DNA from: Chloranthus sessilifolius
Lineage: Eukaryota; Streptophyta; Magnoliopsida; Chloranthales; Chloranthaceae
Direction of reading: 5' to 3'
NCBI GenBank assembly: GCA_021018995.1
Contig: CM037586.1
Coordinates: forward strand, 149,028,060 to 149,092,059
DNA length: 64,000 nucleotides
Program-made: the position numbers and the translations under genes
In this document: piece by piece, positions 21,300 through 52,086 of the stretch
Layout of the letters: every line of letters starts with the position of its first letter
How positions within the stretch are numbered: position 1 is the stretch's first letter
The notes under the pieces: generated by a model
Seen by the model: only the letters and a program-made list of their open reading frames with translations
What the model was told of the DNA's origin: nothing
Databases searched by the model: none

Positions 21300-21304
21300 C
21301 TTAT
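21300..21304. repeat. Solo-LTR target-site duplication, copy 1
   Basis: CTTAT, repeated at 22408-22412. Confidence 0.88.
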
Positions 21305-22407: not shown

Positions 22408-22412
22408 CTTAT

Positions 22413-23521: not shown

Positions 23522-23533
23522 GCTTTGATACCA
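23522..23533 (-). other. gypsy primer-binding site
   Basis: TGGTATCAAAGC on the minus strand, four bases from the 5' LTR end; one mismatch to the Met-tRNA site. Confidence 0.85.
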
Positions 23534-23537
23534 AAAC

Positions 23538-24598
23538 TGACATCGGACAACGACCCTAAGATCCGTGAATGACCATGATATGTTAATTTGCCGAAATTAA
23601 ACTAATTAATTTGACCAATTAAATCACAAATTAAAGCGATACCTTGGGTTTCGCGGGATTCCGCTTAGGTGACCATGCTCGGTTCGCGTAGGGTCCAATC
23701 CGACGCGAGAGATTCGTTAGGATGGCGGAAGAGGCGATCCGAGAGATAGAACTCTTGCTTCGCCTAGGTCGGGGCGTTGGATCGTAGTTCTTCGTGGAAT
23801 CGAGAGTTCCTTGCTAGGGCTTTGAAAGGAAGCAATCAATAGCACGAGTTGAATATGCTCAAGCCCAACAACGGCCGTGGATCGACGGGTACGGTCGGAT
23901 TCAATCCACGAGGATGAACGTTGAGGGTATTCTAGATCTAAGGTTTGGGGATTAAAACGATCAATAGAAAAGGAGAAGATTGAATGCAAAAAATTAAAGT
24001 GAAAAGAAGATCAAGCAAGAGCAAGGATTAAAAGAGAAGATCAAAGTAACCTTGGCCTCACACCAAACCCACATGGGGAAGAAGACTCTCTTCAAGCTCA
24101 TCTTAAGCTAAATGCAAAACATATTTTCATTAAATCAAGAAGTGCCAAAAATGTCTTACAAAAGTATGCTTTATAGTAACTAAAAAGGGAATAATCCCTA
24201 AAATGGCAAAGTACGAAATTATCCTAAGTGGTAACTTACAATTAGACATAAAAGCAATAAAATCAGGATAAAAAGGACAAAATACGTCCCTTAAGTCGCA
24301 GGGCGGAGATTTCCACGGACGTCTGTTCTGGGCACCACGGACGTCCGTCTCCTATCCATGGAAGTTCGTGATGCCCACGAACGTCCGTCGTGCATTAATA
24401 GTGCGACCCTCTAATTTCGGACATTCGTCCAAAGCCTTCGGACGTCCGTCGCCTGATGACTTTTTGAGCCTCTTAGGCTGATCTCTAGGGCCTTTCCTCG
24501 GTAGATCTTGAAGCTTCATGGTTCCTCTGCCGCTTCTTCTTTCATCAATACACCTGGTAGAGCTTGAAACCTAGGTCCTCTAGGCGGCGTCCCCATCA
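23538..24598 (-). repeat. gypsy 5' LTR
   Basis: 1061 bp; begins TGACATCGGACAACG and ends CGTCCCCATCA on the plus strand. Palindrome cluster at 24308-24450. Confidence 0.88.
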
Positions 24599-30018: not shown

Positions 30019-30316
30019 GGGAAAATTTTCTAATCCACCCTTTCCGATACACCTTTTCCGCTAGAGATCTTATAGTTTCATCTTCATCCAAAGTGTTTAG
30101 CATTTAGCCGAGCAGTTCTAGCTAGCACAAAAAGTCTTAAATACCCCTTCTTACACTTTTTATTATTCTACATAGGTTAAAATTTGAAAATTTTGTACTT
30201 TTTTATATTTACACGATGTGAAGCAGTATCTATGTTGTCTAATTTGAAGGCCATAATATAAAGATTGATGGTGCCAAAATTGACACGAAAAAATGTAATA
30301 TCGTCTCTTTAAAAAA
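30019..30316 (+). repeat. MULE-C left inverted arm, outer part
   Basis: Pairs with the reverse complement of about 50640-50943. It ends in TCTCTTTAAAAAA, the MULE-A target. Confidence 0.78.
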
Positions 30317-30410
30317 AGAAAAATTTACCTGATCGATCCTGTCAGATACACTTTTTACGTCAGAGGCCCTATAGTTTCACCTTTACCCAAACAGACCAGC
30401 TCCAAGCCTA
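30317..30410 (+). repeat. MULE-A left TIR
   Basis: Matches the inverted right end at 38840-38932 and both TIRs of MULE-B. Confidence 0.88.
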
Positions 30411-30820
30411 GCCGACCCTAAGGAGAGTAAAAAGTTCAAATTACCCTCTTCTATGACTTTCTTTAACCCACAAAGCATCCTCAACTTCCTCATTTTAATC
30501 TGCTAAAAAGTTAGAGGTGGGTCAGGTGACAACGTCTTCTTCCTTAGCCTGATTTGCTCCGATCTGCTATTTCGAAGAAGAAAACAAAGGCTTGAAAAAA
30601 GAAGTCCCTGCATTTCTCTATTGTGACAAGAAGACCCTGCAGTTTGCCGTTGCAATGCGAGGTATCCTACTTAAATCCCATTTTCAGTTTAGTAGGGTCT
30701 CTTAATGGTGCAGTATAAGAAATAATTTAAGTTTATTGGTCCCCATTTTCAGTTTATTAGGATCTCTTAATCGTGCAGTATAAGAAAGACTTTATTTCCT
30801 TGAATCATTTTTTGAAAAGT

Positions 30821-31068
30821 TTATATCGATTGTACATATAATCGTTATAAACTCTATATACAGTCGATATCGATTGTATAAACAGTCGATATCGACTCTA
30901 TATTCAATCGATAATGATTGTATACAAAGTCGGTATCGACTGTTTATACAATCGATATCGACTATATATAGAATCGATAACGATTATATTTACAATCGAT
31001 ATCGATTGAATATAGAACCGATATCGACTGTTTATACAATCGATATCGACTGTATATAGAGTCGATAT
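30821..31068. repeat. 22-bp palindrome array a1 (upstream of MURA)
   Basis: About eleven tandem units of 22 bp. Each is a 14-bp palindrome of the form ARTCGATATCGAYT plus an 8-bp AT-rich spacer such as GTTTATAC or ATATATAG. It lies directly before the transposase start and is the array closest to the left TIR. Confidence 0.93.
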
Positions 31069-31140
31069 GTGCTAACAATCATCTTCTCTCTTTTGTGTCA
31101 TCAGTCTTATGATCCCTTCCTTCTCATTCTTAAACAGACG

Positions 31141-33895
31141 ATGACGGAGGTGGAGATTTCTCTTCTTTGTCACTATGATGGCTTTCTTGTAAGCGATGAT
31201 AGCTTGTATGAAGGTGGCCGGCGGAGGGTTATTAATATTTCCACTGATATTTCTTATAAACAATTCATTAGGCGAATGTCTGCTGTAAGTTTTGCGAGGG
31301 CAAATGAAATAGTTTTCATAAAGTTCAATATGAAGATAGTGAATACCCATGTGGTTATCGATATTTTGGACTCTAATAATTTGGCCACCCTATTTACGTT
31401 TTATAAATCCGAGATGGACGTCATAAAAGTATTCATCATTAAGGAACCGTCATCCTTCCAAGTCGAAACTGAATAAGTAGATCTTGGCGAGACTGATTTT
31501 GTGAGTAACCATTCATTTCAGTCATGTAAGTTTGAGGAGGATGAAACTATATACGATACCGTCCCGTTAGGTGATGACAACGATATTACGGCGAACATGA
31601 CTGCCAGGAAAGTAACTTTTGATTTAAACGATAATCCGATTAAATCATATGATGACCCACTAAAATATATGTATGGGTCACAACAATGTAGTCAATGGTT
31701 AGACTACACTTTAGAAAGGGTGGTGGATACCGATGATTACAGTCATATATTTTTCGGTGGATGGACAACTTGGTTGACTCACGAATTATGCTCTACCATG
31801 TCATTGATGGGGATTACCAGAGAAGCTCAACCCCATGTCCATACACATGAGCACCCCTTCGGTGAAGGGCCTAGTCAATCACGCTAGAACCCCTTCGGTG
31901 AAAGATCTAGTCAATCACATCAGAACCCCTTGGGTGAAGGATCTAGTCAACCACCTGAGAACACCGCTAGTGAATGGCGTAATCATTCTCAACCCACTAA
32001 TAAAGATACCTTAGAAGAAGATTATGAAAGCGAACTGGATGAGTTTATAAAAGAGGATCCGAAAATTTTTGTGAGAGACATTGATAATCCCCTAGTAGAC
32101 GGAGATCACGAAGTGTCAGAAACATCGGGTGACTCCTCTAATGAAGAGGTGGAAACTGAATATTGAAATTAAATGTTTAAAGTTAGAGAGATCTTCAGAG
32201 ACAAATAAACATTTCAAAGAGCATTGAAAGAGCACGCGGTGGAGAAAAACTTCCAAATTCGGCATTTGAAAACCACTAGTTATCGAGTAACAGCTGGATG
32301 CTATGAACTCGATTGTTCGTGGCGAATACATGCGTCTAAATTTACTGGGCTCGACTCTTTCCAAATCAAGACATTCAATAGTACTCACACATGGAGGCCG
32401 CTAAGATCAGACTGCACGATCACCGTAATGCAACATTCTCCTTCGTAGCCAACTATGTACGGGAGAAACTTATGAAGGGATTCGACTACACACTGGCGTC
32501 GATAATGTTTGAGATTGTAAAAGCTTATAATGTGTAAATCTCATATGCAAAGGCTTGGAGGGAGAAAAAACTTGCCCTTAATGATATTAGAGGCAGTTAG
32601 GAAAGATAATGTGTGTATCTACCGACCTACGTGAAGGAGATAGAGATGGTAGATCCTAATGTACAAACATCCTTTCAACTTACGCTTGACGGTAAGTTTC
32701 AAAGATTTTTTTAGAGTTTTGGCCCGTGCATCGGAAGCTATCGCAATACACTTCGTCGCATATTGCTTGTAGATGGCACACACCTACTAGGATGTTTCGA
32801 AGGGATCCTATTTATCGCCTCAGCGCAAGACGGTAATGGCTATATATTATCGTTAGCATTTGTCGTCGTCGAATTAGAAGAAGAATATACGTAGATGTGG
32901 TTTCTTGAACGGATAGGTGCGTTCGTGATCGATGGGTTTATCAAAGATTTCATTTTTATCATGGATAGGTCGAGGGGGGGTTTAATAAAAGCGGTGAAAC
33001 ATATCTTCCCTAACGTATACCACAACTATTGCATGCAGCATGACACAAAATTTGACATACAAGTATCCCAAGAACAATGTGAAGGGTCTATGGTGGAGCG
33101 CTGCGCGTGCATATTCAGTAGAGAGATTTGATTATTTTATGAATAAAATGAAGAAAGATCCTGTTGATCCTCGGGCCGTAGAGTATATTTTAAAAATAGA
33201 CCCGAAGCATTGGGCATGCGCATATATGAAAGGCAGTACGATTCCCTGACTACGAATAATGTTGAAAGCTTGAACAGCGTACTAAAGATAGCTCGAGAGA
33301 GACCAATTATCGACTTAATCAAAGCTACTAGAGAGAAAGTCGCCGATCATTTTCAAAAGCGCTGACAGATATCTGAGAAATGGACCACCCTCCTCTGCTC
33401 GAAAGCAGACGAGCACATAAGAAGGTGTTATAATGAGCCAGTAGAAAGAGAGCTCAACCATACAGGCGCGATCAATTCCAAGTCAACTCCCGAAATTTCA
33501 TTCATCACGTCGACTTGGAATACAAGACGTGTACTTGCCGCCGTTGGTACATTCATGGCTTGCCTTGCTCCCATGTCGTAACAATCATCAATCGGAGAAG
33601 TTACGATTACCATAAATTCTGTGAGAAATAATTTTTCATCGCTTGCTTTAGACAAACATATAACGAACAATGGCTTCCCACCATCGATAAAAGCCAATGG
33701 GAGTTCCAAACAGAGTAACTCCCTGAAAATATGAAGTAAGACCACCCTATAATTGTCGAAAGCAAGTTAGTCATCCGAGGAAGAGAAGGATACGGTCTAA
33801 GGGTGAGGTTAGGGCCCTACAGTGTGGTAGGTGCAGTGAGTATGGTCACAATCGCAGGAGTTGCACAGCAGTGGGACCAATGGGTTGATAGTGTA
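31141..33895 (+). pseudogene. MULE-A MURA-type transposase
   Basis: From ATG at 31141 the first block (MTEVEISLLCHYDGFLVSDD) is the N-terminal domain common in plant MULE transposases, ending at a TAA near 31474. Next comes an acidic linker with repeats of PFGEGPSQ, then the MuDR DNA-binding domain (ALKEHAVEKNFQIRHLKTTS, GCYELDCSWRIHASKF) near 32225-32400. The catalytic DDE region has VDGTHLLGCFEGILFIAS near 32765 (first D) and FIMDRSRGG near 32955 (second D), followed by PNVYHNYCMQH. The end has a SWIM finger (CTCRRWYIHGLPCSHV near 33525) and a C-terminal zinc knuckle CGRCSEYGHNRRSC. Several stops (31474, 31885, 32164, 32890) and a frameshift in a G run near 32977 inactivate it, although both visible catalytic aspartates remain. 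Confidence 0.9.
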
Positions 33896-34034
33896 TATTT
33901 TTAATAGTGATAGATGGAATGTAAATGAGACAATGTGTATATTTGCTCAGAAGCTTAGAATTCTGATATTTTATTTCGTAATAGTTGTAATTTTAGAGTG
34001 TATACTTGCCCAGAAATATGGATCATAGAATGTA

Positions 34035-34312
34035 CAGATGCATCGTTGGCGACTCTATATAGAGTAGTTGACGATTGGCCAGACAGTCGATGACGATTCT
34101 GTGTAAAGTCGCCATCGACTTTATATAGAGTTGCCATCGACTGTCTATAAAGTCGATATGAATTCATTGTACAGTCGCTATCGACTATTTATATAGTCGA
34201 TGGGAACTCTATTTAAAGTCGATAGCAACTCTATCAAAAGTCGTTATTGACTATTTATATAGTCGATAAATAGTCGATGGCGACTCTACATAGAGTCGAT
34301 AAAGACTGCTAC
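34035..34312. repeat. 22-bp palindrome array a2 (between convergent genes)
   Basis: About twelve units between the 3' ends of MURA and the ULP gene; more CpG-decayed than a1 (TCGCCATCGA, TCGATGGGAA variants), the 22-bp register is mostly kept. Confidence 0.88.
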
Positions 34313-35349
34313 TTCTGTAATATAACCACTGCTACTTAAAAATATTTCATTTATATTAAAAATATTTCATTTATATTTTAAAATGTTTCATTTATAATAT
34401 AAACACTGCTATTTTTGCGCCTCCTCCTTTGAGTCGTCCTGCTCTAATTTCCCTCCTCCATCACTTGTGTATTTAGTCAGTGTATGGTCAATTTCTGTCC
34501 TGATCCTATCCATATTTGATTGCGCGAAGTCAAATTTCTTTCTTGACATGAAGTACTCTACATACTTCAGCACAAACACCCCACAATCACTCGAATTAGT
34601 CTGTTGGGAAAGGCCTTTGTACCGGCAGTCACTAGATGACCAAAAATAGGTCTTCACGTTCAGTGCAGTGGAGTCTCCGTACGAATATAAAATAGCGGGA
34701 AGGTATTGGGTCTATTTCGAAATAGAGGAATATCAGATATGCTAAGCTAACAATGATAAAAGATATGCTAAGCAAAATATCTTACCAGTGTTTGTAATTG
34801 GTTCAGATATCTTTTCTTAGATGGCCTATTAAAAATAGGATCGACGACCAATATCGACCGTTCGACTACCTTCACGATCGCAAGTGCCCAGTGTAATGGT
34901 TGTTGTGAATGAATTGGGATAAATATCTATAAAAAAGTAATATAATCTCAAAGGGTATGATAGAAAAAATTATAAAGATGCTCGAAGCATACTATGCTGC
35001 GTTCGTGAGCCCACAGATTTCGAAACTGATTAAAGAAAAAATGTTGCAGCAGCTTCTTGCCTTGGTTCTCCTTGAGTTTATGGGCAGCCCACCGTTCAAC
35101 TTGAATCTCGAACGATTCTTCGTACAATTTTTCAGTGAGAAGGAACTTGTTGAAATCGTTCAGTTCACTGCCCATGTAGGTCAGAGCGGTAGGGCATATA
35201 AGGAAGCATTTATCCTTTCGATCAGGATGAATATTGTCATCAATTACTTTTAAGTGTCTCAGGTAGGCGCCCATAATTTGAAACCAATGCAGTTACAGTT
35301 AAATAAGCAACATTCAAAAGAGTTGTCTCTTGTCCTTCAATGTATAAAG

Positions 35350-35635
35350 TGGATGACTCGAAATAAAGTCAGTATCGACTCTACAATGAATTAATATCGA
35401 TTCTACATACAGTCATTATTGATTATATAAATAATCAGTGTCGACTCTACAATAAATCGATATCGATTCTATATACAATCATTACCGACTACATAACTAA
35501 GCATTATCGACTCTACAATGAATCGATATCGATTCTACATAGTCGTTACCTACTATATAAATAATTGTCATCGACTCTACAATGAATCGATATCGATTTG
35601 TTATAGAGTCGATAACGACTCTATTTTGAGTCATC
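35350..35635. repeat. 22-bp palindrome array a3 (ULP intron)
   Basis: About twelve units with ATCGATATCGATTCTA-like sequence, between exons at about 35770-35660 and 35274. Confidence 0.88.
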
Positions 35636-36344
35636 GACGTCTTTATATTGTCTATTTGGTGCCTACAGTAGGGTTATTTTACTTATAAAATTATCCAAGT
35701 ACCGCGTGCCCACCAAACATTTGAAAGATTGTACCACCAGTGTATAATTACCGACAGTGCTTACGTAGTATTTGCATAAATAAAAGCCAACGTAACTAAT
35801 TTTCGTAAAGTGAAAGATTCAGGCTTCTTCCTGGGAAGAATTACTTACTCGTCCTCAGACTCAAGCTTGTTCCACATGTCTAGCATATATTTCTGCTCCG
35901 CTGTCAATTCAGCAGTAGCATCATCAGCCATAAGTCCAGGATCAGCAGTAGCATCAGCCACCGGTCCAGGGTCAGTCGTAGGTCCTTCAATGGCCTTCTC
36001 CGTTACAGACTTTTTCACCATCGCTCCCCTTCGCTGTGTCTTAGGTTTGACGGTAGTTGATTTTACGGGTTTCCCTTGCCTAGGTCTTAAGCGAGGGTCA
36101 ATTTATTGATGAGGCAATTGGGAAGAGGTTTACTCTTCACCAGCTGGACTCTTATTGAGTTGAGACTTAGGCTGCTTGTCAGCAGCTGCCGTCACCTCAT
36201 CCATGGGAGGATCCTCATGCATTGGAGCTGATGATTCCTTATCGAAGGTTCTGTCACACACCTTCGATATCAGCTCCGAAATAGCGACATCCTGAACATC
36301 GAAATAATGGTACAATATAAGAAACAATTTTTGGTCCCTATTTT

Positions 36345-36540
36345 AAAAAGTCGATATCGATTGTAAATATAATCATTATCGACTTTATACACAGTCGATA
36401 ACAATTGTAAACATAATTGTTATCGACTCTATATACAATTAATATCGATTGTAAAGATAATCGTTATCGACTCTATATACAGTCGATAACGATTGTATAC
36501 AAAGTCGATATCGATTGTAATTACAATCGTTATCGATTTA
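36345..36540. repeat. 22-bp palindrome array a4 (ULP intron)
   Basis: About nine units within an intron bounded by GTATGTG at the donor and TTCAG at the acceptor (minus strand). Confidence 0.9.
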
Positions 36541-37202
36541 TGTTAGCTATCCAGAACATATAAAAACTACGTATTAACACATACCTTAGGTCTCGCCTCT
36601 AATAAATTTTCAAGAAGTTCTTTTAGATTTTCCTGGCCCTTTCTAACCAACATATTATAGTGAATCATCTTCTGCAACTCCGCATCCCTTGAATGGAGCC
36701 GCTCATTCAAGGAGTTGCATAGTTTCTCTACGGAGGCACAACGTGTCGCGAGGACCACATTCTCTCTCTCCAAATGGCTCACTCTTTGGGTGAGCTTCAA
36801 GTTCTCCAGTGCCAAACCGTCGATCATCCTCAATAACGACTCATTGGAGGTCAGTGCAGCTGGGCACTCCTTCGTAGCCCCCCTAGTTCTCGGCCGCTCT
36901 ACATCTACGTAGACGAGGCCCTCTTTCGAGGAAAATTCTTTGTCCAACGTCGATTGGACGTTACATTCTTCCTCGTCAATATTCTCGATCGGAATATAAT
37001 TTCTCTTTTTCGGCAGCAACTCTTCCACAGCTTTCTTGACCGGTTCATGAACCTCTTTCGTCTTCCCCCAACGACCGTTCGTCCTCGTAGATATTTTTTT
37101 AAAACGGGTATCTCTAATTCAAAGCTAATAGGCACGAGGGGAGCGCAAATCTTTTAAAAGAAAAGGAAACATAGCAAATAATAGACTAAATTGATAATAT
37201 AT

Positions 37203-37392
37203 TTCATCTACAAAGTATCGACTATTTAATAAGTCGTTATCGATTCTGTAATGAATCGTTATCGACTATTTAATTAAGTCATTATCGATTCGGTAATGAA
37301 TCATTATCGATTCTGTAATGAATCACTATCGATTATTTAATAAGCCGTTATCGATTTTGTAATGAATCGATATCAATTCTAGAATGAATTGG
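37203..37392. repeat. 22-bp palindrome array a5 (ULP intron)
   Basis: About eight to nine units, many with the variant centre TTAT or TTAA, between exon 1 and exon 2. Confidence 0.87.
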
Positions 37393-38361
37393 TAAGTCAT
37401 TTTTTTCAATCGGCATCGGATCTCTCTACTCCTTAACTTTATAAATTTAAATTATTTAATTGACATCATACCTTGTTGTTCAACATCTGTCCGCGAGTGT
37501 AACCTTTAATCCTTGATTGCGCCTTGTCCAACTATTTCACCAATCGTGAGAATGAGTCCTTAAGGCCTGTCTGGGAAGGCGAGATATCTGGCAGCATCTC
37601 ATAAGTCTACCATTGAAGTACACATATGCATCCATATGTGTTGTACGTCTTAAGGAATTTATCTATCTTGGCTATCCATCTCGGCAGTCTTTCTATTCGC
37701 TGCGCCCTTCATTATGTACTCCATCAAGTCATGGTATACGTGGAGACCCCACGGAGTTTGGTTAAAGTTTTCGACATCATCGATGAGATCGATGTGGTCT
37801 TCCGCCAGTTGATGGTGGGACCCGGGAAAAAGAAATATATACAACACATATAGAAGGGACAACTTTATAAAGTCGTCATCACTTTTCACTCTCCAAATTA
37901 CATTATCTATATGAGACCGAAGAATTTTTCCATGAGGCATTCCACGAAAATATTTGTATCGAATGGTTTGTTCTTCCGATAATTTAACGAGTAAACTTTT
38001 CGGGACCAACTACGGCAAGGCCCAATATCAATGCAATGTCCAACTTATGAAGATAGACATCAGTCTTCCCAATTCGAAAGTAGTTTTTTCAATCCAAAAA
38101 GTCAACATCGCATCGACCACATCTCTAAGAAATCACACACCCTTAGGCATTTGAAATATTTCACCGAAAATTAAAGCTTTCAACAACTCCTTTCGAGTTG
38201 GGTTAGCGGTATCGTAGATATTCGAAATGGCAATGGAGGAACACTTGGTAATAGGTCGGTGTGCAACCATCTTGACAACTTGTTAAAATGAACTGTAATA
38301 AAAAAGGAAAGACTGAATCCCATACTACACGGATTATTAAATGTTAAATGAACTGTAATAT

Positions 38362-38575
38362 ATAAAATTGATATTAATTGCATATACAATCGATATCGAT
38401 TGTATATATAGTCGCTATCGACTATACATACAATCGATATCAATCGAATATATAATCGATAATGACTAAAAATACAATCGATATCGACTCTATATGTAAT
38501 CGATATCGACTCTATATGTAATCAATAACAACTATAAATACAATCGATATCGATTGTTTATAGAGTAATCTTAAA
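38362..38575. repeat. 22-bp palindrome array a6 (upstream of the ULP gene)
   Basis: About ten units between the ULP start codon and the right TIR; the mirror position of a1. Confidence 0.9.
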
Positions 38576-38839
38576 GAATTATGACAAAATGTACACCGAC
38601 GAAAGAAGAAGAAAAAACTCTACAGCAATGGAAGAAAATTTTATTTCTAACTTACAGATTTGGTATCTTGAAGATTGAAGAAAGGAACGCAAGCGACAAC
38701 GAAGCGACACCGTCTCTCCACGGACTTCGAACGAGAAAGTAAAAAGTAAAAAAAGGTAAACAGTGAAGAGTTGAAATTCAAGGACGGCTATTTATTACAC
38801 TGGGGGTAATTTCGACATTTCCTAAAGGCGGGCGACGGC

Positions 38840-38932
38840 TCGATGCGCAGCGGGTTGGTTTGGGTAAAGGTGAAACTATAGAGCCTTTGACGTAAAAGGT
38901 GTATCTGATAGGGTCAATCAGGTAAATTTCCC
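38840..38932 (-). repeat. MULE-A right TIR
   Basis: Reverse complement of the left TIR; ends GGTAAATTTCCC before the TTTAAAAAA TSD. Confidence 0.88.
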
Positions 38933-38941
38933 TTTAAAAAA

Positions 38942-39652
38942 ATACCTATGAAACAGCATTTATGCTATCTTATTTGAAGGCCATAATATAAAGATCGATA
39001 GTGCCAAAGTTTGACACCAAAAAAGGTGATATCGCCTCTTTAAAAAAAAATTGCTTAATTGAAGAATCGATATCGCCTCATTAAACAGTCGATATTGATT
39101 GTTTATTGGGTCATGTCGGCTCTTTATTAGAGATAGAAACGCTCTAGCCGCCGGACCAAAATGCACGCAAAGCGTTGGAATTTGTGGGCTTTTGAGAAAG
39201 GACGCACGATAGTGGTTGTCAATCCGCCAGTCAATCCTGCAACGTATTGGAATCTGGAACGGTTTATGCACGTGTCAGCTTAGCGAGACACGTGGATTTT
39301 GTGTGTGTGTGGGGGGGGGGGGGAGTTTATGCACCTCTTTTGGAAGTTGGAACCTTTGGCACAACAATATTTATTTTTTAAAATCACGACTTCTCTATAT
39401 ACCATGTACCGGAATTTTTTTATACATTTGATGGTGTAATTTTAAAAAAAAAAACAAGAAAAAAATCAGTTGTTTAAAGAATCTATATTGACTGATTAAA
39501 TAGTCGATATCGACTCGTTAAAAAGTCGGGCCTGACTCTTTACACAATCGGTATCACCTGCTTACACAGTCGATATTGATTGTTTAAAAATAAAATATAT
39601 ATTTGTATACAAAAAAGGTAGAAATCAGCCTTTCACATATGCTATAGTACGG
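38942..39652. other. MULE-C interior between the two inserted MULEs
   Basis: It contains the second subunit of the MULE-C left arm (38950-39060), short palindrome arrays at 39063-39118 and 39478-39588 in the same 22-bp register, a GT/G run at 39301-39324, and 39120-39480 that I cannot assign. No coding signal. Confidence 0.65.
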
Positions 39653-39661
39653 AAGATTGAA
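39653..39661. repeat. MULE-B target-site duplication, left
   Basis: AAGATTGAA, repeated exactly at 50110-50118. Confidence 0.92.
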
Positions 39662-39755
39662 GGGAAATTTACCTGATTGACCCTGTCAGATACACCTTTT
39701 ACGTCAGAGATCCTATATTTTCACCTTTATCCAAACCAACCAGCTCGAAGCCGAG
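39662..39755 (+). repeat. MULE-B left TIR
   Basis: Begins GGGAAATTTACCTGATTG; matches MULE-A TIRs and the inverted right end. Confidence 0.88.
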
Positions 39756-40094
39756 TCGATCCTAAGGAGAACAAAAAGTCCAACTTACCCCATTCTCTGA
39801 CTTTCTTTAACCCACGAATGTATCCCCTTCTTCCTCATTTTAATCTGCTAGAGTTAGTAAGAAGTTAGAGGTGGTGAAGGTGACGACGTCTTCTGCCTCA
39901 GATCTGCTACTTGGAAGAAGAAAACAGAGGCTTGAGAGAAGAAGCTCCTGCATTTTGCCACTGAGAGTTGAAGATCCTGTAATTTGCTATTCTGACGCAA
40001 AGTATGTTAAGATCTAGTGTAAACCCCATCAAAAGTTTCTTAGAAATACAATGGTGAAGTATAAGAAATATAATTTTATTTTTAGAAATTAATT

Positions 40095-40200
40095 TTACTG
40101 GGTAAATATATCGAAACAGTCAATAAAGACTTTATACAGAATCGTTATCAACTGTTTAAATGGCCGATAACGATTGTTTATACAATCGATAATGATTTTG
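40095..40200. repeat. 22-bp palindrome array b1 (upstream of MURA)
   Basis: About four decayed units in the position of a1, which is more than twice as long. Confidence 0.8.
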
Positions 40201-40272
40201 TATCAGTTGTTTTGCTAATAATTTGTCATTCCTCTTTTTTGTCATCCGTCTTATGACCCCTTCCTTCTCCTT

Positions 40273-43047
40273 CTTAAACAGGCGATATCTTGTGTGAAAA
40301 TTTCTCTTCTCACTTTGATGGCCATATTGTAAATGATGATGGTTTGTATGAAGGTGGCCGACGGAGGGCTATTACAATTTCGACGAGTATTTCTTATGAA
40401 CGATTAATAAGGCGAATTTCTGTTGTCAGTTTTGCAAGGGCAGATGAAATAATTTTCATAAAATTCTCTATGAAGATAGTGAATACCCCTTTGCTTGTTG
40501 ACATTTTAGATTCGAATGATTTGGCCTCCTTGTTTTCATTTTATAAATCCGGGTTGGACATTATAAAGGTATTCATCATTAAAGAACCGTCATCCTTCTG
40601 AGTCGAAGCTGAACAAGTACCTCTTGGTGGAACTGATTTTGTGAGTAACCATTCTTTCCAGCCATGTAAGTTTGAGGAGGAAAGACCTACATATGATACC
40701 GTTCAGTTAGGCGCTGACGGTGATTTTGCGACAAGCATATCGACCATGAAAGCAACTATTGATTTAAACGATATTCCGGTTGAATCATATGATGACCCAC
40801 TACAAAATATGCATGGGTCACAACATTGTAGTCAAGAGTTAGACTACACGTCTTTAAGAGTGAGAGATGAAGATGATTTTCGTCATCTCTTCCCCGGCGG
40901 ATTCACAACTTGGCTGACTCACAAATTATGTTCTACTATGTCATCAATGAAGATTACCGAAGGAGCTCTACCCCATGTCCATACACATGAGCACCCCTTC
41001 GGTGAAGGGCCTAGTCAACTATGTCAGAACCCGTTCGGTGAAGGGCCCAGTCAACCATGTCATGACCCATTCCGTGAAAGGCCTAGTCAACCACATCAGA
41101 ACCCCTTCGATGAAGAAGGATCTAGTCAACCACCTCAAAACATTACTAGTGAAGAGAACATCGAAGATTATGATGACGAACCGGATGGGTTTATAAAAGA
41201 GGGTCCAAAAATTTTTGTGAGAGGCATTGATAATCCTTTACTAGATGGAGCTTACGAAGTGTCATAGACATCGGACAAGTCTTTCAATCAAGAGGTGGAA
41301 ATTGAATACCGAAATTGGGCGTTTGAAGTTGGAGAGACATTAGAGAGATCTTCAAAGACAAACAAATATTTCAAAAAGTATTGAAAGAGCATGCGGTGGA
41401 GAAAAACTTTCAAATTTGGCCTTTGAAAATTGCTAGTTATCAAGTGACAGTCGGATGCTACGAACTCAATTGTTCATGGCGAATACATGTGTCTAAATTG
41501 ACTGGGTTCGACACTTTCAAAATTAAGACATTCAATGGTACTCACACATGCGGGGCCGCTAAGATCGGACCGTACGGTTACCATAATATAATAATCTCCT
41601 TCGTAGCCAATTATGTATGGGAGAAACTTATGGAAGGATTCGACTACACACCGGTGTCGATAATGTTTGATATTACAAAAACTTATAATGTATAAATCTC
41701 ATATGCTAAGGCTTTGAGAGGAAAAAACTTGTCCTTAATGATATTATAGGCAGTTGGAAAGGATAATTTGTGAATCTACTGGCCTACGTGAAGATGGAGA
41801 GGGTAGATCTTAATGTACAAACATCCTTTCAACTTACGCTTGACGGTAAGTTTCAAAGATATTTTTGGAGTTTTGGCCCGAGCTTCGAAAGCTACCGCAA
41901 TACACTTCGTCGCACATTGCTGTAGATGGCACACACCTACGCGGACATTTTGAAGGGATCCTACTCATCGCCTCGGTGCTAGACGGTAATGGTCATATAT
42001 TACCATTAATATTTGCCATCATCGAGTTAGAAGAAGAGGATATATGGATGTGGTTTCTTAAACGGGTCGGTACGTTCGTGAACGGTGGGTTAGTGAAGAT
42101 TTTATTTTTATCACGGGTAGGTCGAAGGGTTTAATAAAGGCGATAAAATACGTTTTCCCTAACGCATACCACAACTACTGCATGCGACATATGACACAAA
42201 ATTTGGCACACAAGTATCTCAAGAACAATGTGAACTGTCTATAGTGATGTGTCGTGCGTGCATATTTAGTGGAGAGATTTGATTATTTTATTAACAAAAT
42301 AAAGAAAGATTCTGCTTATCCTCAGGCTGTAGAGTATATTTTAAAAATAGACCCGAAGCATTGGACACGCGCTTATATGAAAGGAAGGTAGTACGATTCC
42401 CTGATTACAAATAATGTTGAAAGCTTGAACAACGTACTAAAGATAGCTTGAGAGAGACCAATTATTGACTTAATCAGAACTACTAGAGAGAAAGTCGTCG
42501 ATCATTTTTAAAAGCGTCGACAGATATTTGAGCAATAGACCTTCCTCCTTTGCCCAAAAGCAGACAAGCACATGAAGAAGGTGTTGTAATGGGCCGGTAG
42601 AAAGAGAGCTCAACCATATGAGCACGATCAATTCCAAGTCAATTCCGAAAATTTCATTCATCACGTCGATTTGGAATACAAGATGTGTACTTGCCGTCGT
42701 TGGCACATACATGGCTTGCCTTGCTCACATATCGTGGCTGTCATCAATCGGAGAAATTACGATTACCATAACTTCTGTGATAAGTGATTTTTCACTGCTT
42801 GTTTTAGACAAACATACGAAGAACAATGGCTTCCCACCCTCGATAAAAGCCAATGAGAATTCCAAGCTGAGCAACTGCCTGAAAATATGAAAGTTATACC
42901 ATCCTATAATTATTGAAAGCAAGCTGGTCGGCCGAGAAAGAGAAGGATACGATCTAAGGGTGAGGTTAGGGCCCTACAGTGTAGCAGGTGCAATGAGTAT
43001 GATCCCAATCGCAAGAGTTGCACCGCAGTGGGACCAATGGGTTGATA
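40273..43047 (+). pseudogene. MULE-B MURA-type transposase
   Basis: Homologous along its length to the MULE-A transposase, but the ATG is replaced (the frame opens with GATATCTTGTGTG). The N-terminal domain reads FDGHIVNDDGLYEGGRRRAI; a four-unit PFGEGPSQ-type repeat lies near 40990-41130; the DNA-binding domain is at 41380-41600 (CYELNCSWRIHVSKL). The DDE region has VDGTHLRGHFEGILLIAS (first D kept), but the second aspartate has become glycine (FITGRSKG instead of FIMDRSRG near 42115). The SWIM finger (CTCRRWHIHGLPCSHI) is kept; the C-terminal knuckle is CSRCNEYDPNRKSC, with proline in place of histidine. Stops and shifts are frequent. Confidence 0.89.
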
Positions 43048-43371
43048 CAGTACGTACCTCCTTCACATAGTAAATCAACCTCTAATCCTAGCGTTCCATT
43101 AAAAGTTTCGTGTCTATGAGTTTGCTAACTTGCATTTTCAATTTAGGAGTTTTATAAGTTATATTTTTCTATCTGTTAATAAATGAGATTTTTTTCACGC
43201 ACAGGGGCTAGAGATAGATCACCATTCAGAAATAGTACAAGAAGCCGGCTATATCGTACATACTTCAACACAAACACCCCACAGTCCATTAGTTATAAAT
43301 TAGTAGAACTTTCAGCATCTTCTCATAACTTTCAGTACATAGAACTTTCAGCATTTTCTCATAACAGACAA

Positions 43372-43470
43372 TCGATATCGACTGTTAATATGGTCGATAT
43401 CGACTTTATAAGAAATCAATATCGATCAGACAAGAGTGATACCGATCAGATATAATCATTATCAACTATC
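43372..43470. repeat. 22-bp palindrome array b2 (between convergent genes)
   Basis: About four units, matching the position of a2. Confidence 0.82.
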
Positions 43471-44032
43471 CAGACAAATGGATATAGTTGTACCTACTTG
43501 AGATTACAAATTTTCAAAAGCAGTCGAATGTTACAATACTCATATATTTTTGTACAAAAATTAAAATTTTTATTTACAAATTTCCATGAATGTTCGGCTT
43601 ACAACTAAATACAATTATAACTTATGAAAAAAATTAGGGTGGCGCATCAGTAGTAGGTTCTACATCGGTATCTTGCTCGGCTTCTCCATCAACAATGAAT
43701 TTGGTAAGGGCCTGGCCAATTTCTGCCCTGATCTGACTCATATTGTCTTAAGTGAAGTCGAATTTCTTTTCCGTCATAAAGTACTCTAATTACTTCAACA
43801 CAACCACCCTAAAGTCCCACCCATTGCTCTGTCGGGGTACAGATTTGGTCCGGCAATCAGAACTTGACCAAGGATACTTCTCAGCACTCAATGCAGTGGA
43901 ATCTCCGTATAAATGTAAAAGTGCGGGAAGGTAATAGATCTATTTTGAAAAGTACAATGTCAGATAAGATAAGCAGCAAAGATAAGCAAACAATAAAATT
44001 TTTAGTATAACTTTTAGTATTTTCTCATAACA

Positions 44033-44300
44033 GACAGTCGATATCGACTTTATAAGCAGTCGAAATCTACTGTTAGTACTGTCGTTAACGACTGCCTATA
44101 GAATCATTAACAATTGCTTATACAATCGTTAACGACTACTGATACAGTCGATATCGATTATATAAGCAGCCGTTAACGATTGTATAATCAATCGTTAACA
44201 ACTGCTTATACAATCAGCATCAATTGTATCAGCAGTCATTAACGACTTAAGTAGTCGTTATCAATTGTCTGTACAGTCGATATTGACTGTCAATATGGGT
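44033..44300. repeat. 22-bp palindrome array b3 (ULP intron)
   Basis: About twelve units, many with centre TTAA; MULE-A has no array at the equivalent intron near 34690-34785, so this array was gained in B or lost in A. Confidence 0.88.
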
Positions 44301-44885
44301 CTGTTTTGAAAAGTGTAATGTCAGCTAAGATAAGCAAGCAGTGAAAATTTATAGATTCTTATCAGGAGCTTCAATTGAACGGGATACTTCTCCTTAGAGG
44401 ACCTATCCAAAATAGGGTTAACGACCATTACCGATCATTTGACAACCTTAACGATCGCAAGCGCCCAATATAATAAGTCGTGGCAATGGATTGGGACAAA
44501 TATCTGAAATGAATAATATAATATTAGAGGATACAATTTGAAAATTATAAAAACTGTTGGCAGCGATCATAATGTACCGTGGTACATTGGTGAGCCCAGA
44601 GCTCCCTCAACCGATTGAAGAAGTTTTGGAGCACCTTCTTACCTGGGTTCGTCTCTTCCTTAAGGGCAGACCACTGTTCGATTTGCATGCTCAGCGCTTC
44701 GTCGTTAAGTTTTTCAGATTCAATAAATATTTTGAAATCATTATAGTCTATGGCCATCCATATAGGTCAAACCGGTGGGACTCATAAGGAAGAATTTATC
44801 CTTTACCTAAGGATGAGCAGTGTCATCAATGACTTCCAGAAGTCTTAGGTAGGCTCCCAATATCTAAAAGAATTTTTTTTTTTGA

Positions 44886-45070
44886 ATAATCGACTATACA
44901 GAGAACCGTTATCACTTCTATATACAGTCAGTATCGACTATTAAGACGATCGTTACTGATTGTTAATACAATCGTCATCGACTGTTAAGACGATCGTTAC
45001 TGATTGTTAATACAGTCGTCATCGACTGTTAAGGAAATCGTTAGCGATTGTTTAGACAATCGTTATCGAC
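44886..45070. repeat. 22-bp palindrome array b4 (ULP intron)
   Basis: About eight units; includes an exact local duplication of two units (GACGATCGTTACTGATTGTT repeated near 44950 and 44990). Confidence 0.88.
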
Positions 45071-45712
45071 TATAAAGGATTACTTACAATATTGTCTAAG
45101 TGTCCCTCGCCTTTCAAACATTTGAAAGTATCTATCCGGAGTGTATAATCACCCATGGTGCTTACGTAGGTGCCGCATATGAAATAATGGCCAAAGTTTA
45201 AATTCAAAACGAAATTAACTACTAACTAACTATCATCAGAAAAATGGACAAATTACGAAAATAAGTAACTTACTCGACATCCTCAACGGGAGTTATCCAT
45301 ATGGCATTCATGAACTTCTGCTCAGCTGTCAGCTCAACTGTAAAAGAGGGCATCATCTCCGTTGCAAGTTTTTTATCGGTTACTTTCTTCCGGTCTTAGG
45401 CTTCGAGACAACAAGTTTTAATTTAGTCCTAGGCCTCAAGCGAGCGTCGAATGATTGCTCGGGTTGCTCATCACCAGTTGAACCACTCTTATCGGCATGA
45501 GCCTGGGATTGGTTGTCAGCTACTACCACCTCCTCTTGCGTGTCTTGCGTGGGAGGAGATGGTCCCATATCTGATGGTCCCTTGTCTGCTGGACTCATAT
45601 GTTCTAGTCCCATATCAGCAGTGAGAGGCACATCCGATAACAACTTCGAAACAGCATCATCCTGAACATCGAAAGAAATCAAATAAATAACTAACCAGAT
45701 ATGAAACCCTAA

Positions 45713-45945
45713 ACACAATCGATATGACCTCTAAAAATAATCTATATCGACTCTAAAACCAATCGACATCGACTCTACAAAAAATCGATATCGACTCTAC
45801 ACACAATCGGAATCGACTCCAAATCCACTCGTTATCGATTGTGGATAAAATCGTTATCGATTGTACATGAAATCCAGATCGATTGTGGATACAATTGTTA
45901 TCGATTGTATGCACAATCGTTATCGACTCAATAAACAATCAGAAT
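45713..45945. repeat. 22-bp palindrome array b5 (ULP intron)
   Basis: About ten units inside an intron with donor CTAAG|GTATGG and acceptor TTCAG; orthologous to a4. Confidence 0.9.
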
Positions 45946-46659
45946 AATTCGTAGCAGACTACATTACGACCCATACCTTAGGTGTCACCTCCAAGATCGT
46001 TTGAAGGAGTTCAATAATTTTTCCTTGCTCCTTTCAGATCACCTTATTGAAGTGACTAATCGTTTGCAGCTCTACATCCCTTGAAGTAAGTCGGTCATCA
46101 AAGGAGGTGCTTTGTGTCTGGAGGAGCTTATTCTCTTCCACCAACTGCTTATTCTCTTTCACCAACCGCTTTACTAACTCTGCCAAACGGCTCACTTTCT
46201 GGTTGAGTTTCAAGTTCTCCAATTCTATACCGTCAATCCTCCTCAACAACACTTCATTAGAGGAGGTTGGTGTACTGTCGCTCGTCTTTGTGGCGTCCCT
46301 TCTCGGCCGGTCTAATTAGACGGAGACCTCTTCTGACGACGAGTCTTCGTCCGACGTTATTTCATCCTCAAACTCTTTCTCGTCAACTTCTTTGATCGAA
46401 ATGTAATTTCTTTTTTTCTTGGGCCGGAAATCAAATTTCACAGCTTTCTTGACCTCTTCAACACTCTCTTTCCTCTTCCCCCCAATCTTCGCCCCAACAG
46501 CCTTTCGATCCCGCTAATAATCCCTTATAAGGGGTATCTCTAACTCAAAGGAAACGGGTTCGAGGGGAGCGTAAATCTATTACAACAAAGGATTGGTTGT
46601 AAAAAAATAGTAATATTATAGAAAGTCGAATGTAGAAAACTAAACTATTACTGCAATAT

Positions 46660-46925
46660 ATCGACATCTTAACGAGTCGATACCGATTCATTTACAGTCG
46701 ATAACGATTGTGTAGAAAATCGATAACGATTGCCTAATAAGTCGATGCCAACTATGTAGTAAGTCGATAACGACTACGTACGCAGTCGTTAACGACTGCG
46801 TAGGAAGTCGATACCGACTTCGTAGGCAGTCGATAACGACTTTGTAGGAAGTCGATAGCGATTGCTTTGGAAGTCGATGATAACTACGTAGGAAGTCGAT
46901 ATCAACTGGTTACGAAGTCAAAATC
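46660..46925. repeat. 22-bp palindrome array b6 (ULP intron)
   Basis: About twelve units; spacers here are GTAGGA-rich instead of AT-rich, while the palindrome half-sites stay the same. Orthologous to a5. Confidence 0.9.
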
Positions 46926-48405
46926 TTCCAATTTACTCTTTAAAGTTCTTACCTTCACAAATTTGAAGTATTTAAATCGACATCATACCTTGCTATCCAG
47001 CATCTTCGCAAGAGTGTAGCCTTTCGTCCTCGTTTACGGCTTTTCCACCTACTTCAACAATCGTGGGAAAGAGTTTTTCATGGGCGTTCTTTGAGGTAAA
47101 ATGTCAGGCAGCATCTCATAGGTCCACCATTAAAGTACACACATACAGCCATAAACATTATACGGCTTAAGGGCTTTATAGTTATCGGCACTCTTTCTAT
47201 TTGCCACGCCCTTCTCTATATACTCCAGCAAATCATTGAACACGTAGAGACCCCACGGAATTTGTTTGAAGTTCTCGACGGCATCGACGAGTTCAACGTA
47301 GTCTTCCGATAGTTGATAGTGGGACCCGAGAAAAAGAAATATACACAGAACAAATAGAAGAGCCAACTTTACGAAGTCGTCATCACTTTTCGCTAGCCTC
47401 AATCCATTTTCTATATAAGACCGAATAATTTTTCAGGTTGGCAATCCACGAAAATATTTATATCAAATGGTTTTCTTTTCAGGTGGTTTAACGGAAGGGG
47501 TATACTGTTGGGGTTCAACCACCGCAAGGCCCAATATTAAGACAATATCCATCTTCCGAAAATAGAAATCTCTCTTCCCGATTCGGAAGTGGTTCTTCTC
47601 AACCTAAAAACTCAACATGGCATCGACGACTTCTCCAACAAAGCTAACACCCTTTGGTATTTGGAATATTTTATCGAAAACTGATGCTATGAGCAACTCC
47701 TGCTGTAGGCTTGCCTCCTCGTAGACCTTTGAAATGTCAGTAGGCAAACATTTGACAACAGCCCACTGTATAACCATCTTTACGGCTTCTGTAAATGAAC
47801 TGTAATAAAATTGAAAAGCATGACTCAGATACTAAGGCCTCGTTCGGGAGCCAGATTTAACTCAGATTCTGAGTTTAAACTCAGAAAGTTCTCAGAATGT
47901 GTTGGTTTCCGATTGATTCCGGCGTTCCGGCGTTCGAGAGTTTTTTTTGGGAACTGAGAATCCGAGTAGTTTCCGAGTGAAAGCGACACTTAGTCGTCCG
48001 ACCAAATCGCTCGAAAAAGCTCAGAATCTGAGCTCAGATTATAGGCGGGCGTTGTATACATGAGATAAATGATACATCAGATCCCAACTCACCATAGGCT
48101 TAAAAACAAAAAAACAAAAAAAAAAAACAAAAAAAAAAAAAAAAAAAAAAAATTACAGAAAAGACCATTTGGAGAAGATGACTGTGAGTTGAGAACAACT
48201 CACCATCGCCGATACACATTTTTTTCTCAACAGACGGCCACCGAACCGATACCAGACGATGCCTGGCACCGAGGGCCATTAGCCGGGTTGTTGGACCGTC
48301 ACTTTTGTGACGATTAATCCGTTAAGATCTGTTATCACCGACCGTCGAAAGGCGTTGTTCATGTTCTTGTGCGGAGGAGAAAGAGTTTTAGCCCACGCTG
48401 CTGTT

Positions 48406-48408
<3 letters not shown>

Positions 48409-48450
<42 letters not shown>

Positions 48451-48521
48451 TGTGGGTTACTGCCAGATGTGGGTTACTACCTTATATATCCCAGATGTGG
48501 ATTACTGCTAGATGTGTGTTG

Positions 48522-48595
<74 letters not shown>

Positions 48596-48679
48596 GTATG
48601 TTTAAATCCATTATATAAGGCAACCGACTGACGCTTGTATTTTTTATTATTTTTTTTGAGAGAAAACTGGCGCAGTTGT

Positions 48680-48758
<79 letters not shown>
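48409..48758. repeat. Three long (AT)n microsatellites
   Basis: AT runs at 48409-48446, 48524-48591 and 48683-48758, separated by short repeats of AGATGTGGGTTACTG-like and other sequence. YIYIYI open frames here are artefacts. Confidence 0.96.
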
Positions 48759-48761
<3 letters not shown>

Positions 48762-48769
48762 CACTTTTA

Positions 48770-49155
48770 AATCCACCCACCAAATCTTTGAGTTCACCCA
48801 CGTGGAAACACATCGACTGCATTGAATCAGATGATGGAGATTGTTTATCGTCCCAATATTTTACGCGATCGATCTTTAGATCATGGGTGTACCATCAGAC
48901 GGTTGATTTTTTATTTCATATGGTACACACCCATAAAAGTACCTTAAAATCAATTTTAAGTGTGCACGTAATGTTAAGGTCACTTTTTTGAGATGCGTCC
49001 TGTGTGAAATAAAACATTGGCCGTCTGATGGTACGCCATTAATCTCAAGATCTATAGTGTGAAAGATTGGGAGGATAAATGATTTCCATCATTCAATTCA
49101 ATTCAGTCAATGTGTTTCAACGTGGGTATTTTAGAGTTTTGGTTGGTGTAAACAG
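48770..49155. mobile_element. Foldback MITE, family M copy 1
   Basis: Inverted arms with GATGATGGAGATTG (left) and GATTTCCATCATTC (right), and TACCATCAGACGG on the left against CCGTCTGATGGTAC on the right. The same family occurs near 51002, 58779 and 62325. It lies inside the Harbinger-like element. Confidence 0.72.
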
Positions 49156-49589
49156 AGGTACCCAATGCCTTATTTCATTTATTCTCGTAAAAAAATACAT
49201 TTTAAAAGTAATGACTATTAAATCAGATTCGAAAAAAAAACTCCGTCAAATATGCTCAGTCTCATCTCGATTGATTGCCCGTAAATTTTGAAAGAAATCC
49301 GAGTACGACATACAAACCGATGATTAGATCACGTTTCTACGGTCATAGCATAACCACCGATTGAATCGTTTCTGAAGATTTTCTGAGAGGAACTTAAAAA
49401 CAAAAGATTCTTAGTTTTATAAGAATCTGTCAGAAATCTGAATAACTTAAGAACGCATATAGGGAAAATCAGGAATCTGAGTCTACTAAGAATCTGTCAG
49501 GAATCTGAGTGTCCAAGAATCTAAGCTTTTCTGGGAAAAATCAGGAAACACCTGAACGAGGCCTAAAAGAAATTGTTTATAATCAGCTA

Positions 49590-49742
49590 GTTAACAATCG
49601 TCATCGATTGTTAAGGCAATCGATACCGATTGTTAAAGCGGTCGATAACGATTTCTTACACAATCGATATCGATCGTATTAACAATCGGTATCGATTGCC
49701 TACACAATCGATGACGATTGTGTAGGAAATCGTTATCGCTCC
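49590..49742. repeat. 22-bp palindrome array b7 (right subterminal)
   Basis: About seven units in exact 22-bp register, in the position of a6, now separated from the ULP start by the Harbinger-like element. Confidence 0.9.
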
Positions 49743-50009
49743 GTTATTTTAGTGTAAAAAAGAAAATTAATTCAAAACATAGGTCGTCGAAAGGAGAATA
49801 AAAAATACTACATCAATGAAAGATAATTTAATTTCTAACTTACAGATTTGATAGCTTGAAGATTCAAAAACAGAGCGCTAGCGACTATGAATCGGCACCG
49901 CCTCTCCACCGACTTCGAACGAAAAAGTAAAAAAGGTAAACAGTAATTAGTTTAATAAGGGAAGACTATTTATTACCTTGGGGGAAATTTTGGCATTTCC
50001 TAAAGGCAG

Positions 50010-50109
50010 GCGACGGCTAGGCGCACAGCGGGTCGTTTGGGTATAAGTGAAAATATAGGGTCTCTGACGTAAAAGGTGTATCTGACAAGGTCGGTCAGGT
50101 TAATTTTCC
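50010..50109 (-). repeat. MULE-B right TIR
   Basis: Inverted match to 39662-39755, ending GGTTAATTTTCC before the AAGATTGAA TSD. Confidence 0.87.
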
Positions 50110-50118
50110 AAGATTGAA

Positions 50119-50943
50119 AGGCGTCAAACGCCATCCCTCATTTATTTCACTACCCATGCCTCTCTATCTTGGATTCTGTGATGCACATAATGGACCCTGC
50201 TGAAAGAGTGGAGTCAGGGGACTAGAGTAAGATTTGGTCGTTTATTTTATAATTTTAATTTGCGAGAATTTGTCTTGCGTCGAAATTCGAGCCTCTAAAA
50301 CGTTTGAAAGATTAGATACGCAAGATTGTTGGTGTAAGATTTTTTTTTTTTAAGTCCCGACTATGTAAACAGGCAATACCGACTATTTAGAGAGTCGGGC
50401 CCGACTCTTTAACGAGCCGATATCGATCGTTTAAACAGTTGATCCTGACTCTTTAACAAGTCGATATCGACTATTTAATGAGTCGATATCGATTCTTTAA
50501 ACAATTAACATTTTTTTTAAAAGAGCCGATATCACATTTTTTTGTGTCAATCTTTGGCACCATCGATCTTTGTATTATGACCTTCAAATCAGACGGAATA
50601 AATGCTACTTCACATCGCGTAAACAGACTATTTTTTATATTTTCTTTAAAGAGGCGATATCGTCCTTTTTTTTGTGTCAATCTTTAATACCATCGATCTT
50701 TATATTATAGCCTTTAAATCAGACAACATAGATGCTGCTTTACATCGCGTAAATATGAAACGGTACAAATTTTTAAAATTTTAAACTATATAAAACGATA
50801 AGAAGTGTAAGAAAGGGTATTTAAGACTTTTTGTGCTAGTTACAACTGGATCGACTTAGAGCTGGTCGACTTGGTTAAAGGTGAAAATATAGGGCTTATG
50901 GCGGAAAAGGTATATCTGATAGGATCTATCTGGTAAATTTCCC
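50119..50943 (-). repeat. MULE-C right portion and inverted arm
   Basis: 50119-50345 is unassigned interior; 50350-50545 is a 22-bp palindrome array; 50520-50943 is the right inverted arm with two subunits (TTTGTGTCAATCTTTGGCACC and TTTGTGTCAATCTTTAATACC, each shortened here as read) mirroring the left arm. Confidence 0.75.
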
Positions 50944-51492: not shown

Positions 51493-52086
51493 GAGCAATG
51501 GTTAGGTCCAACTAAGTTGAACCGGATTTCAAGCTCCCTTAGATAGTGGAGAATCTTGACTCTTATGGTTTTAACTATGGGAGCCATTATGCACACACTT
51601 TTTAAGTGACTGCACCGAGGTTAAAGAAAAACTTTGTATTTTAGGGACATATGACATGTGAAAATGCAATCTAGGCTATCTGATATAAAGTTCATGATCT
51701 ATAGATCCTTAGTAGATAAGATTGATGCAAAACACGATATTTATCATATGATTTATTGTTGTCAACCGTTAAATCAAATAATAGCCTTTGACTATATTTA
51801 ATTACATGACAAAGATTATATTTCATGCCAATCTTATCCACTAAGGATCTATAGATCATGAACTTCAAATCAAACGGCCCATATTGTATTTTCACATGTC
51901 ACATGTCCCTAAAATACATAATCTTTTTTTTAACCTCGGTGCAATCACTTAAAAAGTGAGTGCAAGTAATGACTCTCTTTTACTTTTTATCGGATGACAA
52001 ATAGTCAAGATTCTCTTATTTCCAATGACTACAAATGTGTTTGAACTCGAAATCCGATTCAATCTGATTGGGCCTGACCATTCCTG
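51493..52086. mobile_element. Foldback MITE, about 0.6 kb
   Basis: Long inverted arms: GAGAATCTTGACT, ACTTTTTAAGTGA, TTTTAGGGACAT and TCATGATCTATAGATCCTTA occur on the left and inverted on the right; the outer ends GCAATGGTTAGGTCC and GGGCCTGACCATTCC also pair. The centre is about 51740-51780. No coding sequence and no clear TSD. Confidence 0.75.

Follow-up and report, generated by a model that had tools for sequence, protein, structure and literature searches.

The closest described relatives of the system reported here are the VANC proteins of Arabidopsis VANDAL transposons, a family of Mutator-like elements (MULEs). These DUF1985-bearing proteins bind to arrays of densely spaced motifs, located upstream and in introns, and remove methylation (Hosaka 2017, PMC5735166). 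Degeneration of terminal inverted repeats (TIRs) and the possession of VANC-related genes commonly occur together in VANDALs, a causal link being untested (PMC10398659), and certain members of the VANDAL clade possess TIRs (PMC6446971). Ulp1-carrying MULEs include Kaonashi/KIU and elements of melon, rice and grapevine; a review ties the Ulp1 C48 second gene to VANC-like function in eudicots and, citing Sasaki 2022, attributes motif-specific anti-silencing to KIU-carrying VANDALs (PMC13317346). We analyzed a 64,000-nucleotide stretch of the Chloranthus sessilifolius genome (contig CM037586.1, positions 149,028,060 to 149,092,059; hereafter the window), in which three related MULEs, named A, B and C, contain arrays of a palindromic 22-bp unit. 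We consider it likely that these arrays serve as cis-acting targets in sequence-specific anti-silencing of the VANC type, with the element's own DUF1985 protein as the putative binder.

Exact copies of the core palindrome ARTCGWTAWCGAYT (motif 1) occurred at 37 sites in the window, all at 30862-50494 and none outside, and allowing up to two mismatches raised the count to 114, with 112 in the 30-50 kb bins. A seed-and-extend procedure recovered 16 arrays with 2-14 units apiece, 135 units altogether (Table 1), which agrees with the at least 16 arrays and well over 100 units claimed by an earlier, sequence-only reading of this DNA. That reading had placed three arrays in the outer element, C; two of them (c2 and c3) were recovered as such, and c1 amounted to just two units by our criterion. 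The 22-bp repeat that it described was confirmed. Across 30821-50545, lag 22 gave the highest autocorrelation (0.3206; lags 5-59 mean 0.270, sd 0.012), followed by lags 44, 11 and 33, and it was not among the 8 top lags listed for the remainder of the window. Steps from unit to unit measured 22 bp in 111 of 119 cases, 11 bp in 3 and another length in 5, as counted with a unit finder that itself favours 22-bp steps.

To score each position of the unit, sites were selected without the position being judged. The half-sites held 0.79-1.68 bits per position and the central TA 1.08-1.31 bits; conservation was weaker in the spacer, where T15, T17, A18 and A20 reached 0.56, 0.40, 0.94 and 0.34 bits. 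Two dyad axes run through the unit at a distance of exactly 11 bp, one at the core centre and one at the spacer centre, with a symmetry of 0.96 at both, and the same two axes were present in 490 units from 8 other genome loci (symmetry 0.99 at both). The palindrome is therefore kept, as the sequence-only reading had held, whereas its view that spacers change freely was right only in part, given the four conserved positions and the second axis. It had also remarked on the survival of many CpGs, and 193 of the 270 motif CpGs in window units are indeed intact (54 are TG/CA and 23 other). This survival cannot be taken as a sign of low methylation, as a CpG-containing motif was used to select the units and biased the choice toward intact CpGs; we dropped that interpretation also since CpGs of the MURA transposase region decay faster between A and B.

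The arrays lie outside coding sequence. Within the window they sit upstream of the MURA gene, between the two genes of an element, 5' of the second (DUF1985) gene and in gaps of that gene. Across A, B and 8 other copies, none of the 66 arrays overlapped a coding match, and none of the 512 sites lay within one. An array separated the DUF1985 match from the coiled-coil match in 9/9 copies and the coiled coil from the N-terminal part of Ulp1 in 9/9, and another lay between the two Ulp1 parts in 3/9. Two of the array-holding gaps are taken to be introns because A and B have splice-like borders in common (Table 1).

The association of arrays and second gene was found in both directions across the genome (2.17 Gb, 32 contigs). 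Core pairs spaced by 22 bp numbered 8194, whereas a spacing of 21 bp gave 69 and one of 23 bp gave 46; a reversed-pattern control gave 0 at each spacing. Starting from the motif, we fetched 8 array clusters out of at least 9 and read each over 10 kb: all 8 carried DUF1985 and Ulp1 homologues of A, all 8 had TIR homology, and MURA matches fell within the fetched 10 kb in 6. Motif-1 arrays were present in 0 of 8 arbitrary 10-kb loci, one of which (L024) had a single isolated site. Starting from the gene, A's DUF1985 exon matched itself and 149 further sequences at 78-89% identity among the 150 scored of 5004 candidates. The 450 bp downstream of the matches ranked 10, 20, 30 and 40 contained arrays of 10-13 sites in all four cases, with 39 of 40 steps being 22 bp. 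Open-frame DUF1985 copies exist in this genome.

Related genes are accompanied by different palindromes. One of the arbitrary control loci, L025, together with its flanks L032 and L033 (G000:C2:29994001-30016000), held another element with arrays of GAAGCN6GCTTC (motif 2) about every 22 bp; there were 57 sites, compared with a mean of 5.85 and a maximum of 9 in 20 mononucleotide shuffles. Its DUF1985-like frame was 38% identical to that of A over 60 residues (E 2e-10); this frame (E 0.029) and a Ulp1-like one (E 0.0024) were both below cut-off, and a FAR1-like sign was weak (E 0.11). Ten DUF1985 loci were then sampled, blind to their flanks, from 150 scored of 4046 first-look candidates. Motif 2 occurred in three of them (L039, L040 and L042), with steps mostly of 21-22 bp, and motif-1 arrays in none of the ten. 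A third palindrome, TGGTGATCGATCACCA, was found in one, directly downstream of the DUF1985 exon (L035:2266-2408, continued in L044:1-310; G000:C28), with 17 cores at steps mostly of 19-23 bp (shuffle mean 0.09, maximum 3 of 200). Pairs of motif 2 numbered 1193 genome-wide, with 1 in the control, and pairs of motif 3 at 21 bp 652, with 0. In a DUF1985 tree, L039, L040 and L042 group with L033 (support 0.970) and the motif-1 loci are separated from the rest (0.856), which places motif 2 in a sister clade, separate from that of motif 1. A 22-bp repeat in control locus L028, made of TCAATCGATTGA palindromes 22 bp apart (9092-9277), was rejected as a related array; it sits in a long terminal repeat-type element as part of a 65-bp duplication, and is probably unrelated to the MULE arrays.

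These dyads stand in a fixed register, occur only in non-coding DNA, are tied to one gene and differ with the lineage of that gene, and we therefore read them as a target array for its product. In the mechanism that we propose, the protein of the second gene (DUF1985, coiled coil and Ulp1 peptidase) would recognize the dyad ARTCGWTAWCGAYT, probably as a dimer, and would occupy dyads every 22 bp (axes every 11 bp, roughly on one helix face) both in the element's non-coding parts and in gene-less relatives. Motif sequence, density and helical periodicity reportedly matter according to the 2022 abstract by Sasaki, which is also said to name DUF1985, DUF287 and Ulp1; this would make a 22-bp register expected. 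Dense cooperative occupancy would remove or exclude silencing marks from the family's own copies, and SUMO may be a local target of the Ulp1 domain. Tandem duplication would multiply and homogenize the sites, with selection preserving dyad and register, and the protein would diverge in step with its palindrome. Going further, we offer tentatively, and with rather more doubt than confidence, a generalization: DUF1985/Ulp1 proteins of TIR-bearing MULEs might be homodimeric, helically phased array binders that recognize lineage-specific palindromes of 14-16 bp on a lattice of ~21-22 bp (dyads every 11 bp) set by a conserved protein architecture, with at least three parallel target codes in this one genome, each lifting silencing from its own family only, and a Ulp1 deSUMOylase brought to the site.

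Several observations weigh against the assignment of the arrays to a VANC-type system. The DUF1985 matches of both A (E 1e-6, 29.2 bits) and B (E 4.5e-5, 23.9 bits) fall under Pfam's cut-off (35.1 bits for A); both can be aligned with genome loci that score above it. The DUF1985 tree was built on only 42-116 residues per locus. Six of the ten sampled DUF1985 loci had no array within ±1 kb, and L034, L037 and L041 were also without one in about 1.9 kb more. L037 adjoins L035 in the tree, yet lacks the third palindrome in the stretch read, which speaks against a strict link of gene and motif in that lineage. The four loci sampled from gene to motif are not independent, since each is a close copy of the exon of A (about 81-86%). 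The VANC21 motif, YAGTATTAY, is non-palindromic and has one orientation, whereas dyad symmetry here is 0.96-0.99. Methylation-like decay has occurred in the A and B transposases, which differ by transitions at 62 of 148 CpG sites versus 83 of 386 non-CpG C and 99 of 465 non-CpG G. Finally, MURA could also be the binder.

Binding sites, for the transposase or for a host protein, were among the options raised by the sequence-only reading. Binding fits best, and the element's own DUF1985/Ulp1 protein is probably the binder rather than MURA or a host factor, because the sites are situated internally, hundreds of bp away from the TIRs and also within DUF1985-gene introns, and because their sequence differs between DUF1985 clades. 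We thus regard it as unlikely that the arrays are internal MURA sites for synapsis, self-regulation or target choice, even though MURA is encoded by the same elements, has a DNA-binding domain (DBD_Tnp_Mut in B), and A and B each inserted into the array-bearing relative C; the variation between clades comes from a tree of DUF1985 alone and is in itself compatible with MURA. Palindromic dyads that contain CpGs and occur in introns as well as upstream of both genes would also suit a dimeric host transcription factor, or a boundary or enhancer protein, whose sites the elements exploit. This we find quite improbable: the 8 arbitrary 10-kb loci were devoid of motif-1 arrays, and a single host protein would not explain why related elements use different palindromes.

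How the arrays evolve bears on whether they are a neutral satellite, spreading within the elements through tandem duplication. Such duplication does occur, for spacers are homogenized within arrays (similarity 0.557 versus a permutation mean of 0.443, maximum 0.470 of 1000). Between A and B, however, spacer similarity fell below the all-array background of 0.435 in 5 of 7 array pairings (the others being a1/b1 at 0.636 and a4/b5 at 0.552), while core similarity stayed at 0.65-0.78 across all seven. We conclude that tandem duplication homogenizes the arrays while something keeps the core. Arrays also seemed poorer in indels than other non-coding DNA, with 5 indel-like steps to 732 mismatches (0.7%), whereas gaps amounted to 5.0-6.5% of substitutions in two A-B blocks of non-coding sequence, a comparison that is suggestive only, the unit finder favouring 22-bp steps. 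With spacing fixed genome-wide, no motif-1 arrays in the arbitrary loci and none of the arrays in coding matches, the satellite option of the sequence-only reading is disfavoured, and we hold it very improbable. Least of all do we credit a role as RNA, in which self-complementary hairpins would feed or block small-RNA pathways: a1 and b6 do fold better than shuffles (z -16.6 and -8.9), but folding follows from the palindromes, pairing past the core is not consistently kept (self-complementarity per array 0.25-0.67 in spacers versus 0.61-0.79 in cores), and hairpins need no strict 22-bp register.

The anatomy of the elements is given in Table 1. A and B are both nested in C, which is older than either. 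The inverted arms of C align over 491 columns at 77%, its flanks GGGTTGTAA and GGGTAGCAA agree at 7 of 9 positions by eye, and no gene was found in its 1842 bp once A and B are removed. The reading frames of the genes of A and B are interrupted. Three frames of the MURA region of A had no match when searched against Pfam. The N-terminal MURA frame contains 36-bp tandem repeats at 31853-31962 (A) and 40993-41132 (B), which encode repeats like NPFGEGPSQ. When the read-through DUF1985-Ulp1 gene of A was compared with a protein database, 7990 candidates were scored, none at E <= 0.001; a PDB search with the DUF1985 piece gave a single match, a calcium transporter at E 0.019, which we took as chance, and for structure work no more than two relatives, both short and decayed, could be aligned.

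Table 1. Positions of the arrays, elements and genes in the window (position 1 is its first nucleotide).
Feature	Position	Strand	Details
Array a1	30818..31073		12 units; upstream of A MURA
Array a2	34041..34307		14 units, 3 steps of 11 bp; between A's two genes
Array a3	35367..35642		13 units; gap of A DUF1985 gene
Array a4	36349..36538		9 units; putative intron of A DUF1985 gene
Array a5	37210..37378		8 units; putative intron of A DUF1985 gene
Array a6	38366..38555		9 units; 5' of A DUF1985 gene
Array c1	39065..39100		2 units; outer element C
Array c2	39480..39581		5 units; outer element C
Array b1	40118..40197		4 units; upstream of B MURA
Array b2	43370..43467		4 units; between B's two genes
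Array b3	44036..44288		12 units; gap inside Ulp1 part of B
Array b4	44904..45071		8 units; gap of B DUF1985 gene
Array b5	45717..45928		10 units; putative intron of B DUF1985 gene
Array b6	46675..46929		12 units; putative intron of B DUF1985 gene
Array b7	49596..49741		7 units; 5' of B DUF1985 gene, past insertion
Array c3	50371..50494		6 units; outer element C
MULE A	30318..38931		exact 11-bp target-site duplication CTTTAAAAAAA at 30307-30317 / 38932-38942; TIRs 81 bp, 89%
MULE B	39662..50109		exact 9-bp target-site duplication AAGATTGAA at 39653-39661 / 50110-50118; TIRs 75 bp, 88%
Unrelated insertion in MULE B	about 47835-49590		between B's DUF1985 gene and its 5' array
Outer element C	30020..50943		30020-30317 + 38943-39661 + 50119-50943, 1842 bp
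Decayed MURA transposase region of A	31160..33890	+	82% DNA identity to B over aligned block
Decayed MURA transposase region of B	40300..43047	+	DBD_Tnp_Mut 33.3 bits, MULE 34.5 bits, both above cut-off
Decayed DUF1985 - coiled coil - Ulp1 gene of A	34409..38327	-	convergent to MURA
Decayed DUF1985 - coiled coil - Ulp1 gene of B	43681..47834	-	homologous to A's; convergent to MURA
Putative intron of A DUF1985 gene holding a5	37151..37471	-	donor AAG/GTATGATGTC common to A and B
Putative intron of A DUF1985 gene holding a4	36292..36584	-	donor CCTAAG/GTATG, acceptor TTTCGATGTTCAG common to A and B

The insertion in B has long TA runs and an inverted repeat pair (48796-48938 / 48985-49127), and one stretch of it is 87% identical, inverted, to 12743-13105. 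Elsewhere in the window, three direct copies of a ~1.07-kb repeat lie at 18556-24596 (76-89% identity), near a copia-type gag frame (16992-17459) and a Tf2-like SH3 frame (19908-21386), and an inverted repeat at 51623-51930 has 143-bp arms that are 79% complementary around a 22-bp loop.

Two open questions are touched by these arrays: how a transposon lifts its own silencing without harming the host, and how the target of a DNA-binding protein can change under a fixed site layout. With thousands of natural replicates (the 8194 pairs), at least three palindromes and open-frame DUF1985 copies, this genome makes protein-target coevolution directly testable. The VANC work in the literature consulted concerns Arabidopsis. 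Among the literature matches listed, no title or abstract mentions palindromic 22-bp arrays in MULEs; we do not claim that they are absent from print.

Ordinary tandem satellites likewise consist of tandem units homogenized within arrays. The window arrays differ in having at most 14 units each, in their recurrent places within a gene-bearing transposon and in a core that is kept while the spacer changes. The Kaonashi/KIU MULEs resemble the present elements in the Ulp1 C48 domain of the second gene (PMC13317346), which in A matches above cut-off (Peptidase_C48, E 7e-10) and has homologues at all 8 other array loci. The Arabidopsis Ulp1-carrying MULEs are called non-TIR in that review, whereas the elements here have TIRs.

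The nearest likeness is to the VANC system of VANDAL21 and VANDAL6 (PMC5735166; Sasaki 2023, PMC10398659). Both there and here a MULE has a second gene with a DUF1985 domain (below cut-off in A and B) beside a MURA-type transposase, dense short tandem motifs lie in introns and upstream of the transposase, arrays are homogenized internally, and the motif varies between related families. Binding and hypomethylation have been shown in that system and are predicted for the elements described here. The VANC6 motifs AGTTGTCC and AGTTGTAC are not palindromes, in contrast to the 14-16-bp palindromes that stand here in a strict register of 22 bp. In VANDALs, TIRs are described as absent or degenerate, a state that commonly accompanies VANC-related genes (PMC10398659); here the arrangement is seen in MULEs that keep their TIRs, in A, B and the 8 other loci alike. 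We conclude that the kind of system is already known from Arabidopsis VANDALs, and that the Chloranthus elements are set apart by their palindromes, by dyads placed every 11 bp in a strict 22-bp register and by TIRs that have been kept.

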